A stretch of DNA of 64,000 bases from Streptomyces humicola (GTDB lineage Bacteria > Actinomycetota > Actinomycetes > Streptomycetales > Streptomycetaceae): contig NZ_JANFNG010000011.1 of NCBI RefSeq assembly GCF_024436035.1, positions 124,001-188,000 on the forward strand, given 5' to 3'. Each line of letters opens with the position of its first letter. Position 1 is the first letter of the stretch. The notes under the pieces are model-generated. The model was not told the DNA's origin. It did not search any database and worked only from the letters and a program-made list of their open reading frames with translations. Below, piece after piece: positions 24,865 through 38,352 of this stretch. Both the position numbers and the translations under genes were made by a program.

Positions 24865-27800
24865 ATGAGCCACGAGTTGATCGATGGCAGATTCCGCGTC
24901 GGACGGGTCGTCGGCAAGGGCAACATGGGGGAGGTCCACCAGGCGGAGGATCTGCAGGCCGCTGAGGGCGCCCCCGAGCGCACGGTCGCCATCAAGACCA
25001 TCCTCCGGCGTCGCACCGGCACCCGGATCGACACCGACACCGACCCCAAGGCCGTCGAACGCTTCGCCCGCGAAGTGCGCATCATGCGCCGCCTCGGCCA
25101 CCGCAACCTCACGCGGCTCATCGCCGGCGGGATCGCCGAGGACAGCGGTCTGCCCTACCTCGCAATGGAGTTCCTGGACGGCGAGACGCTCCGCGACCTC
25201 ATCGAGGAGGAGTCACAGCTCCCCGTCTCCTGGGCCGCCGCCATCGGCGCCCAGATAGCCGATGGCCTCGCCGCAGCGCACGCCGCCGACATCGTCCACC
25301 GCGACCTGAAGCCCGCCAACGCCATGCTGACCCGCGGCGGTACGGTCAAGGTGCTCGACTTCGGCATGGGCCGCATAGTCGACGACCCCGACGAGGCCCG
25401 GCTGACCAGCACCGGCGTCAGCGTGGGGACCGCCCGCTACATGGCTCCCGAGCAGTTCCAGGCCAAGCAGGTCACGCAGGCCGCCGACCTGTACGCGCTG
25501 GGCTGTGTCCTGTACGAGATGCTCGTCGGCGTACCCCCCTTCACCAGCGAGTCTCCGTATGAACTAGCCCGCAAGCACATTGGGGAGGCACCGACACCGA
25601 TCGGGGTGATACGCAGCGAGATACCCGCCGAACTCGCCCGCCTCATCGACCGGTTGCTCGCCAAGGACCCGGCGGTCCGTCCGGTGGACGCCGTGGCCGT
25701 CCGCGACGCCCTGCTGCCGCTGGCCGGGCAGGACGAGAACACCACCCATCTGCCGCACTGGAGCGCCCTGGACCCCACCCGCCTGCTGTGCGGCACGGCA
25801 GTCGGCGAGGGCCCCGCCGGGGCGGCTCCCACCGCGCAGCCGGTTCCAGTGACCGCCTCCGGCTCCGCCATGGACGTCTTCGGCGTCCACCGCGCGCTCA
25901 TCAAGGACTACCGCTCCTTCACCGAGGGCGGCACGGTCATCCGCGACGACCGCATCGCCGCCTTCGTCGAGGAGGACCTGAACGACAAGTCGCAGTGGCC
26001 GGACCCGTGGCTCTCCCTCAACCCGTTCTTCAAGGGTGGTGGCACCGTCGCGGAACTGGCGGGGCAGGGCGTGTTGCACGAGGAGTGCGCCCGGATCTTC
26101 CAGGCGAACAAGACCGAGAACGGCACGGTCCCCGACGGCCGCCCGCTCACCCTCCATCAGCACCAGCGTGAAGCCGTCGACGCCGCCAACTCCGGTGCGT
26201 CCTACGTGCTGACCACCGGCACCGGCTCCGGCAAGTCGCTCGCGTACATCGTTCCGATCGTGAACAAGGTGCTGCACGAGCGGGACGCCGGGGGGCCCAG
26301 CGCCTCAAGGCGCGTGCGGGCGATCATCGTCTATCCCATGAACGCGCTCGCCAACAGCCAGCTCAAGGAGTTGGAGAAGTACCTCCGCGACGGCTACGGC
26401 GCAGGTCGCGAACCGGTCACCTTCGCCCGGTACACCGGCCAGGAGGACGACGAGAAGCGCAAGGAGATCCGCGACAACCCGCCGGACATCCTGCTCACCA
26501 ACTACGTGATGCTCGAACTGATGCTGACCCGTCCCGCGGACCGGGCCAGCCTCATCAAGATGGCCCAAGGCCTGGAGTTCCTCGTCTTCGACGAGCTGCA
26601 CACCTACCGCGGCCGGCAGGGAGCCGACGTCGCCCTGCTGATACGACGCGTCCGCGAGGCCTGCCAGGCACAGAACCTGCAGTGCATCGGCACATCGGCC
26701 ACCATGTCCACGGAGGGCACCCTCGACGACCAGAGGAACGTCGTCGCCCAGGTGGCGAGCACTCTGTTCGGCACGCCGGTGAGCCCGGAGCACGTCATCG
26801 GCGAGACCCTCGTCCGCGCGACCGGCGAAACGCCCGACACCGTCCCCGCCCAGCGCCTCACCTCGCCCGCCGCCCCGCGCTCGTACCACGATCTGGTGCG
26901 CGACCCGCTGGCCCGCTGGATCGAGACCCGCTTCGGCCTGGCCACGGACGAGGCCACCGGACGCCTCGTGCGACGGCGGCCCACCAAGATCGAGGTCGCC
27001 GCCAAGGAGCTGGCCGAGCAGTCCGGGGTCAGCGAAGACGCCTGCGCCGACGCGATCCGCGCCACCCTGGAGGCCGGCTCGCAGGCGCTGCATCCGGTCA
27101 CCGAGCGACCGCTGTTCGCCTTCCGGCTCCACCAGTTCCTCTCCAAGGGCGACACCGTGTACGTCACCCTGGAGGACAAGCTCTCCCGCCATCTCACCCG
27201 CTCCTACCAGCTCGAACAGCCGGGCAGCGACGGCAAGCTGCTGATGCCGCTGGCGTTCTGCCGTGAGTGCGGTCAGGAGTATCTGACGGTGTGGCGCAAC
27301 GAGAAGGACGGCGAGGTCCGGTACGAGGCGCGACGTGACACCTCCGCGACCGGCGGCCGTCAGGGCGACGGCTATCTCTACGTCGACCACGAACGGGAGT
27401 GGCCGTCCAACGTGCAGTACGCGGTGGACGACCGCCGGCTGCCCGAGTCCTGGCTGGAGCTGGACGACAAGGGCCAGGAGGTCGTGAAGAAGGCGTACCG
27501 GGACCGGGTCCCGCGCGCCGTCACCGTCGACCCGTTCGGCTACGAGGGGCGCGGCGAACTCCGCGCCGCCTTCATACCGTCCCCCTTCCTGTTCTGTCTG
27601 CACTGCGCAGTGGCGTACGAGCAGACGCGCGGCCGGGACTTCGCCAAGCTCGCGACACTCGCCCAGGAGGGACGGTCCTCCGCGACCTCGCTGATCTCCG
27701 CCTCGGTGGTGCGTTCGCTGAAGTCGGTGCCGGAGGAGGCACTCGACAAGGAGGCCCGCAAGCTCCTCACCTTCGTCGACAACCGGCAGGACGCCTCCCT

Positions 27801-37200: not shown

Positions 37201-38352
37201 TTCCGCTCGCGGCGAGATGCCGACCTTACAGCGGCCATCTATCGGCAAATTCCGGTGCTATGGAATGAGACGAAGAAAGATGGAAACCCCTGGGGTATTG
37301 CCTTTAAGCGCCTCTTTGATATGACTGACGACTCCGATCTGTTCCGTACCCGCGAGGCCCTGTTTCGGGAGGGATGGGAACTGGAGGGGAATGTCTTCGT
37401 GCGGGGCGCGCAGCGGATGTTGCCACTGTACGAGGCGAAGATGGTTGGCTTCTTCAACCATCGCGCCGCCGATGTCGTGAAGAGCGAGACAGCAGTTAAC
37501 CGCCAAAACCAACCCCGTTATCTGCGCCAGGACGAGCTCCAAGACGCTGGGCGGTTCGCCCTCCCCATACACTGGATCGCCGAGCGCGGCCTCATCCCCA
37601 CCCGGCGGAAGGACAGAGACGTCGCGGTTGCGGGCGTGAGCGTTCGGTTGGACGAGGTGAAATGGGACCGGGAGTGGCTCTGCGGCTGGTGCGATGTCAC
37701 CGCCTCGACGAACGAGCGCACGGCCATTCCCGCCTTCCTCCCCCGAACTGCCGTCGGCCACAAGTTCCCGCTGATGCTTCCGCGTGTGTCGCCCGACCTC
37801 GCCGCGGCCCTGATCGCGGCCCAAAGCTCTCTAGTCTTCGACTACGTGAGTCGGCAGAAGATCGGCAGCACCAGTATGGGTCTATTCATATGGAAGCAGC
37901 TTCCCGTTCCCACACCAGAGTCGCTGACCCCCCATTTGTCCTTCCTCATTCCGCGGGTCCTCGAACTTGTCTATACCGCCTATGACATGGATCCACTTGC
38001 CCGTGATCTCGGCGAAGCTGGCGCCCCCTTCCGGTGGGACGAGGAGCGTCGTGGCGTGATCCGCGCTGAGCTGGACGCGTACTTCCTCCACCTCTACGGG
38101 ATCAGCCCCGATGATGCGGAATACATACTGGAGGCCTTCCAGACCGACTCGGGCGGCGGCCTGAAGAACAACGAGATCGCCAAGTATGGCGAGTACCGCA
38201 CCAAGCGCATGGTGCTCGCCGAGTACGACCGCATGGTGGCGGCCGGGCTCAGCCTGGAGAACCCTCTCGTGGATGGCGAGAACTACACCTCCACCCTCAC
38301 TCCGCCCCCGGGCCAGGGCCCGCGTCACGAGCCCTGGCCCGAGGCTGGGTGA
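34207..38352 (+). CDS. Eco57I/PglX-like N6-adenine DNA methyltransferase
   Basis: ATG 34207 overlaps the SNF2 stop; the product has 1381 residues. Motif I is VCDPACGSGHFLVAAARRI (about 515-533), preceded by TGSYYTPSSLIDCLLD, and the catalytic motif IV is VVGNPPWDKVDFEDK (about 791-805). The N-terminal 450 residues are a helical region shared with DrmMI/PglX-type proteins. No D-ExK or HNH nuclease motif is obvious. In DISARM and BREX such enzymes mark self DNA; that is the likely role here. From about 36060 to 37990 the base composition drops sharply compared with both ends of the gene, suggesting that the target-recognition part was exchanged. Confidence 0.88.
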   Translation: MSATTRNQVFSAVHTVGALLPADMLVRISEGKDVPGAKPAEYGLPSSRSVRDEAERSWEYLKPLWRELRTRLPENPETGLPAADPTGIAQADWLAPLWRELGFGRLTSVGAAGVTADSDAEKRFEVSHRWRHALIHQTAWNADLDKRPGGAGTVPPQSMLQECLNRTEAHLWGILTNGRQVRLLRDSSALATASYVEFDLEAIFDGELFSEFVLLYRLLHVSRFEVAEDAAPSACWLEKWRTEAIASGTRALDQLRKGVQTAITTLGTGFLKHPDNRELRENLDVKTFHYALLRLVYRLLFLFVAEDRDVLLSPAADETAKDRYAKYFSSARLRRHAQRRRGTAHGDLYRALRFVLSGLANDDGRPELGLPGLGGIFDDTEADKVLHGLALSNEPLLEAVRALSIVRDAGTKRNRVVDYRHLDAEELGSIYESLLELVPKHNATDRTFELVELAGNARKTTGSYYTPSSLIDCLLDSALDPVIDGAVKRGEIRATRSGQPDPRDAIVEELLSLTVCDPACGSGHFLVAAARRIAKRVAAVREQNPEPTLDAVRHALHEVVARCIYGVDLNPMAVELAKVSLWLEALEPGKPLGFLDAHVKHGNALIGATPALLAGGIPDDAFKPIEGDENKIAERLKIRNASERGGQLSFHTEERMWVSNATFAASLRDITSAPTDTLRDVRLQSSRFRDLEQSASYLHALHIADAWCAAFVWPKVQGAPTPVTEGVFRDLQNPSAGIPITTNDEIIRLAQQYKFFHWHLEFPEVFAVVEGSKAASDIEPAAGWAGGFSCVVGNPPWDKVDFEDKKYFSVVEPSVAVISGTARRTRITEWERENPEAGGRYRAARRMVKSTFLFASSSRSFPLCAKGLTVKGVNSLQTDQLFAERFATIVAPKGRFGAIIPTAIATGAGAQHLFNDFTQRGALASLYDFENRKSLFEGVDSRYKFCLLSLAGRGLAEPAARFAFFLYDTSDLEDAGRLFALSPEEINLINPNTGTLPIFRSRRDADLTAAIYRQIPVLWNETKKDGNPWGIAFKRLFDMTDDSDLFRTREALFREGWELEGNVFVRGAQRMLPLYEAKMVGFFNHRAADVVKSETAVNRQNQPRYLRQDELQDAGRFALPIHWIAERGLIPTRRKDRDVAVAGVSVRLDEVKWDREWLCGWCDVTASTNERTAIPAFLPRTAVGHKFPLMLPRVSPDLAAALIAAQSSLVFDYVSRQKIGSTSMGLFIWKQLPVPTPESLTPHLSFLIPRVLELVYTAYDMDPLARDLGEAGAPFRWDEERRGVIRAELDAYFLHLYGISPDDAEYILEAFQTDSGGGLKNNEIAKYGEYRTKRMVLAEYDRMVAAGLSLENPLVDGENYTSTLTPPPGQGPRHEPWPEAG

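Follow-up and report, generated by a model that had tools for sequence, protein, structure and literature searches.

What is a protein kinase doing on the same chain as a YprA-type helicase, and to which defense system does such a protein belong? The question is raised by a three-gene operon in a 64,000-nucleotide stretch of Streptomyces humicola DNA (NCBI RefSeq assembly GCF_024436035.1, contig NZ_JANFNG010000011.1, positions 124,001 to 188,000 of the forward strand; this whole stretch is hereafter the window), in which a Ser/Thr kinase fused to a YprA/DUF1998 helicase is followed by an SNF2 helicase and an adenine methyltransferase. As judged from sequence, our best reading is that the operon is a kinase-regulated variant of ARMADA Type I. 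We give a probability of roughly 0.55 to the proposal that it is an ARMADA Type I defense operon in which an active PknB-like Ser/Thr kinase was added, once, to the N terminus of the YprA helicase at the former start codon, and that this kinase acts as a switch. The core system is already known; no paper on a kinase-fused YprA/ARMADA helicase was found in the literature searched (open-licence full texts, without supplements).

A kinase and a helicase on one chain

The operon comprises three genes:

24865..31197, forward strand: kinase-YprA/DUF1998 helicase fusion (2110 aa; in frame in 78 of 79 informative loci)
31220..34207, forward strand: RapA/SNF2-type helicase, BrxHII/DrmD-like (Pfam Helicase_C and SNF2-rel_dom; PADLOC matches)
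34207..38352, forward strand: PglX/DrmMI-like N6-adenine DNA methyltransferase (1381 aa; NPPW; Pfam Eco57I and N6_Mtase)

The reading frame of the fusion is open from 24859 to 31197, with its probable start at ATG 24865, directly 3' of GAAGGAG; residue numbers given here are those of P0001 (2112 aa, start 24859), from which 2 is subtracted for numbering from the ATG. The SNF2 frame begins 22 bases past the helicase stop, and the methyltransferase ATG at 34207 shares one base with the SNF2 stop, which was the basis for choosing that start; this spacing and overlap suggest that the three genes are probably on one transcript. In P0001 the Pfam models Pkinase (155.7 bits), DEAD (95.3), Helicase_C (45.9) and MZB/DUF1998 (37.4) each scored above cut-off. 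A preliminary description of this DNA, which had reported a Hanks-type kinase on a 2110-residue helicase chain, was thus accurate in its coordinates and domains, and its Lys44, Asp147, DFG and GTARYMAPEQ are present when counted from ATG 24865 (K46, D149 and D167 in P0001); Pfam and PADLOC likewise agree with its naming of the neighbors as an SNF2 helicase and a PglX/DrmMI-like methyltransferase.

The N-terminal part of the fusion is laid out as follows:

24895..25683, forward strand: PknB-like Hanks Ser/Thr kinase domain (P0001 residues 13-275; PF00069, 155.7 bits)
25714..25869, forward strand: variable kinase-helicase linker (residues 286-337; dN/dS 0.48)
25870..25872, forward strand: junction Met338 (MDVFGVHR), where unfused relatives begin translation

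The best Protein Data Bank sequence relatives of the kinase domain are PknB (E 2e-50). Its K46, E72, H147-R148-D149, K151, N154 and DFG 167-169 did not vary in any of 89 fused rows, of which 78 come from the 80 loci fetched as described below and 11 are additional (one plasmid is represented twice, as L083 and L181), and the same catalytic residues were retained in all seven kinases that are encoded beside, rather than on, a related helicase. Across 17 rows from Streptomyces, the window's among them, the median dN/dS was lowest in RecA2 (0.06), followed by the kinase (0.17), the PD-(D/E)xK region (0.23) and the linker (0.48). Such intact active sites, a dN/dS of 0.17 and the presence of the kinase in two independent physical arrangements are hard to square with a passenger that has no role in the system; one locus that lacks the kinase (L033, below) could be cited in favor of that idea, which we consider very improbable.

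Recurrence of the fusion

We scanned one genome per species with residues 331-2112, which omit the kinase, and fetched the best 80 of 132 relatives. Of the 79 loci that are informative, 78 carry the kinase on the same chain as the helicase, therefore neither chance nor assembly error accounts for the fusion; the preliminary description had singled out the kinase as the distinctive part of the operon while allowing that the fusion might occur only once in databases, and the recurrence bears out the former and removes the latter concern. In 77 loci the kinase lay directly upstream in the same open frame, and L078 was scored as fused, since its kinase shares the frame of the N-terminal part of the helicase, which is frameshifted farther down. 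L028 begins at a contig edge and is thus not informative for the kinase. The loci span Streptomyces, Kitasatospora, Micromonospora, Nonomuraea, Amycolatopsis, Lentzea, Nocardia, Saccharothrix, Actinomadura and others; L049, labelled as a Melainabacteria metagenome-assembled genome, may be misbinned.

Because a one-per-species scan favors close relatives, whole genomes were searched with residues 424-1023. Among 394 genomes of the family Streptomycetaceae, 61 had a helicase match at E 1e-120 or better. A fused-type helicase was found in 47 of the 394, window included (70-100% identity; open frames of at least 2104 aa in 45, two broken), and 16 genomes had an unfused match (57-62% identity), two of them carrying a fused one as well. 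For most of the 47 the kinase was judged from frame length, while in the window, L105, L106, L112 and L179-L181 it was seen directly. In class and phylum samples, full-length-frame matches of at least 64% identity were all at least 2088 aa long, and matches of at most 63% were all at most 1955 aa (G121 is frame-broken). The kinase-fused version is common in soil actinobacteria.

Carriage on phages as mobile-element cargo was considered and rejected, as the IMG/VR scan gave no relative of the whole protein and the sole GenBank phage match was partial (one Ruminococcus phage, 37% identity over 37% of the query). Among plasmids, the kinase was found solely in Streptomyces sp. BHT-5-2 (E 1e-50 or better). 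A tRNA search of the window found none.

Origin of the kinase fusion

Helicase trees were built from 81 sequences with FastTree and from 36 with IQ-TREE, using L108 and L111 as outgroups, whose DruE-like PADLOC scores do not type them. (L109-L111 represent another large helicase, about 2270-2330 aa long, which recurs among Streptomycetaceae at about 40% identity, with DruE-like PADLOC scores in L111.) The fused helicases formed one clade in both trees (FastTree 100; IQ-TREE 100/100). L028 and L033 fell inside that clade in the FastTree of 81, which means that the kinase was lost in L033. Helicases of the sister clade are unfused, and all seven members found (L098-L100, L170-L173) have a separate PknB-like kinase gene, divergently transcribed, whose match lies 196-235 bases from that of the helicase; these kinases are 66-96% identical where compared with that of L098. 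The fused and trans-kinase clades join at 99/100 in the IQ-TREE tree, and FastTree agrees. No kinase was found beside the 46 other unfused loci (46 of 46; 0.4-10 kb of upstream flank covered). Since the window's own 7.07 Mb genome holds only 20 other kinase matches, chance adjacency of helicase and kinase is unlikely, though the seven loci are not independent. Around the fused helicases in the tree of 81 group unfused three-gene loci from several phyla; the same gene order occurs in Nocardioides, Rhodococcus and Roseomonas, while Deinococcus has a split methyltransferase and Chlorohelix has one or two small genes inserted.

The fused kinases also form one clade in the kinase tree (98/97). At the junction, Met was present in 77 of 77 pattern-matched fused rows (Phe in L129), and both L033 and the unfused relatives start at that position. 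This retention of Met at the start used by unfused relatives shows that the kinase was attached ahead of the old start codon. An internal start at the junction Met, which would give a kinase-less helicase, was not supported, as a Shine-Dalgarno-like sequence was present in just 2 of 77 rows.

Such constant physical coupling in cis would suit a brake, whereby the kinase keeps the helicase inactive as long as the cell is uninfected and a phage that abolishes or inhibits kinase activity sets it free, and phage kinases that disable DNA-targeting defenses have been reported (PMC12904381). But the viable natural loss of the kinase in L033 argues against a brake that is strictly needed, and we found no direct evidence for one; we hold this version to be unlikely.

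Placement among known defense systems

ARMADA Type I, described in a preprint (Bell et al. 2025, PMC12458937), consists of a YprA gene, then a BrxHII-like gene, then a PglX-like gene, and is common in Actinomycetota. Our assignment rests on that published description, in components, order and architecture. The operon has all three genes in the same order (YprA, BrxHII/RapA-like, PglX-like). Its helicase chain carries OB-CON-DUF1998, as indicated by the MZB domain on the chain and structural matches to MrfA and DrmB, together with a C-terminal PD-(D/E)xK domain, and the CxxC motifs that mark the insertion before RecA2 in Type I are present. It differs from Type I in the N-terminal Ser/Thr kinase on the YprA chain (in the available main text of PMC12458937 the word 'kinase' occurs 0 times) and in the loss, in the window's branch, of the motif of a nuclease that is typically present in Type I and described as active. 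The guess in the preliminary description that the operon might be an ARMADA-like branch fits best, whereas its portrayal as a mix of DISARM, Druantia and Pgl parts gives way: the three genes are those of ARMADA Type I, and the curated DISARM, BREX and Dpd models were not reached.

ARMADA Type II, tested in Escherichia coli, has three homologous components in common with the operon but arranges them as SNF2-methyltransferase-YprA with a fourth gene (GajB-like with a RelE domain); the window has the order YprA-SNF2-methyltransferase, and its next genes are HTH/DUF5753 and HATPase genes. A plasmid search for ARMADA II with the L108 helicase returned archaeal and cyanobacterial relatives only. Pgl/BREX type 2 likewise sets a Ser/Thr kinase alongside an adenine methyltransferase, but here the kinase is on the helicase, and the PglW and PglX models scored 50.3 bits (cut-off 990) and 51.7 bits (cut-off 400); no PglZ or PglY was found among the proteins scanned. 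With DISARM class 1 the operon shares a YprA helicase, a DrmD-like SNF2 protein and a DrmMI-like methyltransferase; unlike in DISARM, DUF1998 is on the helicase chain with no separate DrmB, the curated DrmD model scored 301.7 against a cut-off of 610, and no PLD nuclease was found among the 13 proteins scanned with Pfam. The helicase's best PADLOC matches are Druantia DruE models (up to 336 bits), as they are for the unfused L084, but these matches are partial and the partners here are an SNF2 helicase and a methyltransferase; for the helicase's two partners the listed PADLOC matches (the best 25 of 41 and the best 25 of 47) include neither DruH nor DruA-D, which were not searched for elsewhere. 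The NCBIfam DpdE model gave 173.1 bits against a cut-off of 500. McrBC with a 'DISARM-like cassette' (Bell et al. 2024, PMC11090510) already has the YprA-McrBC association, and the only Ser/Thr kinase in the available part of that paper is the one of TerY-P in CoCoNuTs.

Helicase domains and a degenerate nuclease

The helicase part of the fusion contains the following:

26158..26709, forward strand: RecA1/DEAD domain (residues 434-617; Walker A TGTGSGKS at 453, DELHT at 578)
26686..28038, forward strand: insertion region (residues 610-1060; two invariant CxxC pairs)
28789..28986, forward strand: Helicase_C/RecA2 segment (residues 1311-1376; Pfam)
30406..30696, forward strand: DUF1998/MZB four-Cys zinc-binding domain (residues 1850-1946; Pfam and predicted structure)
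30883..31173, forward strand: C-terminal PD-(D/E)xK nuclease-fold domain lacking the DGxxH motif (VFVDSADEER at residue 2058; structure matches)

The CxxC pairs of the insertion (columns C192/C195 and C304/C307, invariant in the 46-row alignment A4) presumably bind zinc. The C-terminal model had a mean pLDDT of 87.9, and its DUF1998 part matched MrfA (Z 11.7, rmsd 4.0, 166 residues) and DrmB (Z 9.8). The PD-(D/E)xK part (residues 2009-2111; 320-422 of the model) matched VRR_NUC (Z 6.8, rmsd 3.3, 89 residues) and Hjc (Z 5.5); with Z below 8 these nuclease-fold matches are modest, but they agree with each other and with the published description, and they do not distinguish the Vsr type that is typical of ARMADA Type I.

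Among 91 rows of the fused clade the D-G-x-x-H motif was present in 31, absent from 57 and unreadable in 3. With the exception of L146, the 57 motif-less rows come from Streptomyces, Kitasatospora or genomes of the same family; one Streptomyces (L027) is among the 31 that bear the motif. It was present in all six trans-kinase rows read (L099 was not read). Among unfused rows it was present in 26, absent from 13 and unreadable in 8, the last including L109 and L111, which are other helicases; nuclease decay is therefore not unique to fused proteins. In the window's protein, where the first Asp of the fold is retained, the nuclease is probably inactivated.

A decayed nuclease beside an invariant kinase invites the proposal that the kinase is itself the effector, activated when the helicase recognizes DNA and phosphorylating host or phage proteins so as to halt growth or replication in place of the lost nuclease. 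The 89 of 89 rows with invariant catalytic residues, set against DGxxH absent from 57 of 91, count in its favor, and PADLOC holds several stand-alone defense kinases (PD-T4-6 models reach up to 283 bits on the kinase domain, though any PknB-type kinase may score so). Yet the nuclease motif is kept beside the kinase in 31 of the 91 clade rows and in 6 of 6 trans-kinase rows, McrBC is near in most family genomes, no abortive phenotype is known, and ARMADA II works without cell death (PMC12458937). That 31 clade rows retain both an intact kinase and an intact nuclease favors a switch over an effector, and we regard the effector role as an improbable, though the strongest, competitor to it.

Operon partners

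The PADLOC model PDLC02853 matched the SNF2 protein with 2020.8 bits, followed by DrmD (275.7) and BrxHI/II (194.1). PDLC02853 is labelled DpdE and spans the protein end to end while NCBIfam DpdE stays below its cut-off, so the label may mislead ARMADA annotation. The SNF2 motifs DDVGIGKT and DEAH were found in 90 and 91 of 91 rows, and the methyltransferase NPPW and S-adenosylmethionine (SAM) motifs in 75 of 75 full rows.

Within the methyltransferase one region stands out:

37351..37950, forward strand: hypervariable target-recognition region (P0003 residues 1161-1360; drop in pairwise identity)

In 25 Streptomyces rows mean pairwise identity was 0.86 for the helicase part, 0.87 for the SNF2 protein and 0.65 for the methyltransferase, for which identity per 50 residues fell to 0.16-0.41 at P0003 1161-1360 with better conservation on both sides. 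This dip has the pattern of exchanged target-recognition domains and would fit self-marking by sequence-specific methylation. The G+C content of the window falls to 0.61 at 36001-38000.

Genomic neighborhood and McrBC

Downstream of the operon lies a second set of genes:

40335..42710, forward strand: SMC-like AAA ATPase gene preceding McrBC (an associated gene outside the core; profile matches; also before McrB in L185)
43030..45063, forward strand: McrB-like AAA_5 protein with DUF4357 (associated partner; domain scan)
45060..46295, forward strand: McrC (associated partner; PF10117, 193.6 bits)

The preliminary description had noted the lack of DrmB, DrmC, PglZ and PglY, and none of these was found in the proteins scanned; its parts list was incomplete, however, since the SMC-like/McrB/McrC module at 40335-46295 is a conserved partner. 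Scoring McrC as linked when downstream, on the same strand and within 60 kb, we found it in 45 of the family's 47 genomes with a fused helicase, at a distance of 12-47 kb from the helicase match, and in 9 of 9 unfused kinase-less family loci; the two remaining fused genomes carry McrC on a separate contig. McrB begins at most 0.6 kb from the methyltransferase in 11 of the 80 loci, for most of which at most 3 kb of flank is visible. Nuclease loss is not required for the link, since some loci that keep the nuclease motif, among them L038 and L039, also have McrBC next to them. The YprA-McrBC association has been published (PMC11090510, PMC12458937).

Between the operon and McrBC in the window are an HTH/DUF5753 gene, a HATPase gene and the SMC-like gene. 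The first two, divergent from each other and directly past the operon (38570-40068), are possibly regulators; an HTH homolog (at least 65% identity) follows the methyltransferase in 20 of 80 loci. The SMC-like ATPase (40335-42710) resembles LmuB of Lamassu (87.6 bits). In one other genome (L184, L185) the gap between methyltransferase and McrBC holds GajA and GajB (Gabija), a Type ISP-like methyltransferase and an SMC gene, and in a second (L182) a DrmA homolog; the gap varies widely in Streptomycetaceae (L182-L183, L184-L185) and is a possible cargo site. On the other side of the operon, 20588-21763 encodes an RNase H-like domain fused to a histidine phosphatase.

These surroundings bear on whether the operon serves DNA repair, regulation or other housekeeping instead of defense. 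Its frequency in Streptomycetaceae (47 of 394) might point that way, as might the repair helicases that make up the other branch of YprA relatives (PMC12458937). The patchy distribution, the swapping of methyltransferase target specificity, the McrBC linkage, and the Gabija, Type ISP-like methyltransferase and DrmA-like genes in the gap all point to defense, and we judge a housekeeping role to be quite unlikely.

A proposed kinase-switched ARMADA

We infer both the defense activity and the role of the kinase, and propose the following sequence of events. The methyltransferase would mark host DNA at a lineage-specific sequence, and the SNF2 and YprA helicases would load onto unmarked or single-stranded infecting DNA. 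Helicase protomers gathering there could bring their kinase domains together for mutual phosphorylation. PknB-type kinases are activated by dimerization. The YprA-type DruE builds dimers and larger assemblies on DNA (PMC13192584). By analogy with Pgl defense, which requires PglW kinase activity (PMC4365076), the kinases might then phosphorylate the helicase or its partners and so turn the complex from idle to acting. The DNA would be destroyed by the helicase's own nuclease where this is intact and otherwise by partner nucleases, perhaps McrBC.

Several observations weigh against this reading or parts of it. L033 keeps the other operon genes without the kinase, which has thus been dispensable at least once. 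In the kinase tree the neighboring kinases lean to L150 (94/67), a kinase of an unrelated locus in the window's own genome, and a single clade of fused and neighboring kinases is neither rejected (AU p 0.256) nor shown, the quick tree being unresolved as well. (L150, at C27:18519-19334, shares the tail motif DP..FRHP with the neighboring ARMADA kinases.) Outside the family, just 2 of 8 fused genomes have linked McrC, and of the 7 trans-kinase genomes just 1 does. The model of the insertion (residues 610-1060; pLDDT 79.5, pTM 0.52) gave no fold match at Z of at least 5, so the BrxA-like domain that follows RecA1 in Type I was not confirmed here, which is not evidence of its absence. The published phage test of ARMADA concerns Type II, not Type I (PMC12458937). 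No substrate, phosphatase or phospho-binding partner turned up, none having been searched for specifically.

More tentatively, and with less confidence than in the switch itself, we suggest a kinase-governed ARMADA subtype, in which a kinase was recruited as a neighbor of the YprA helicase before becoming part of it (unless there were two independent recruitments) and phosphorylation is the conserved control or output. The Streptomycetaceae branch may have let the built-in nuclease decay and come to rely on partner nucleases such as McrBC.

The fusion links phosphorylation signaling, as in Pgl, with YprA helicase defense (ARMADA, DISARM, Druantia), two subjects usually treated apart. It bears on how YprA complexes idle on host DNA yet fire on phage DNA, with a separable domain as the candidate control element, and the question is directly testable with simple kinase-dead mutants, a natural kinase-less relative (L033), separate-gene kinases, and relatives that differ in whether the nuclease motif is intact. 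If the proposal is true, a helicase reporting foreign DNA by phosphorylation would be a type of signaling immune sensor that has no described counterpart among YprA systems, and its presence in 47 of 394 Streptomycetaceae genomes would make it relevant to the phage sensitivity of antibiotic producers.

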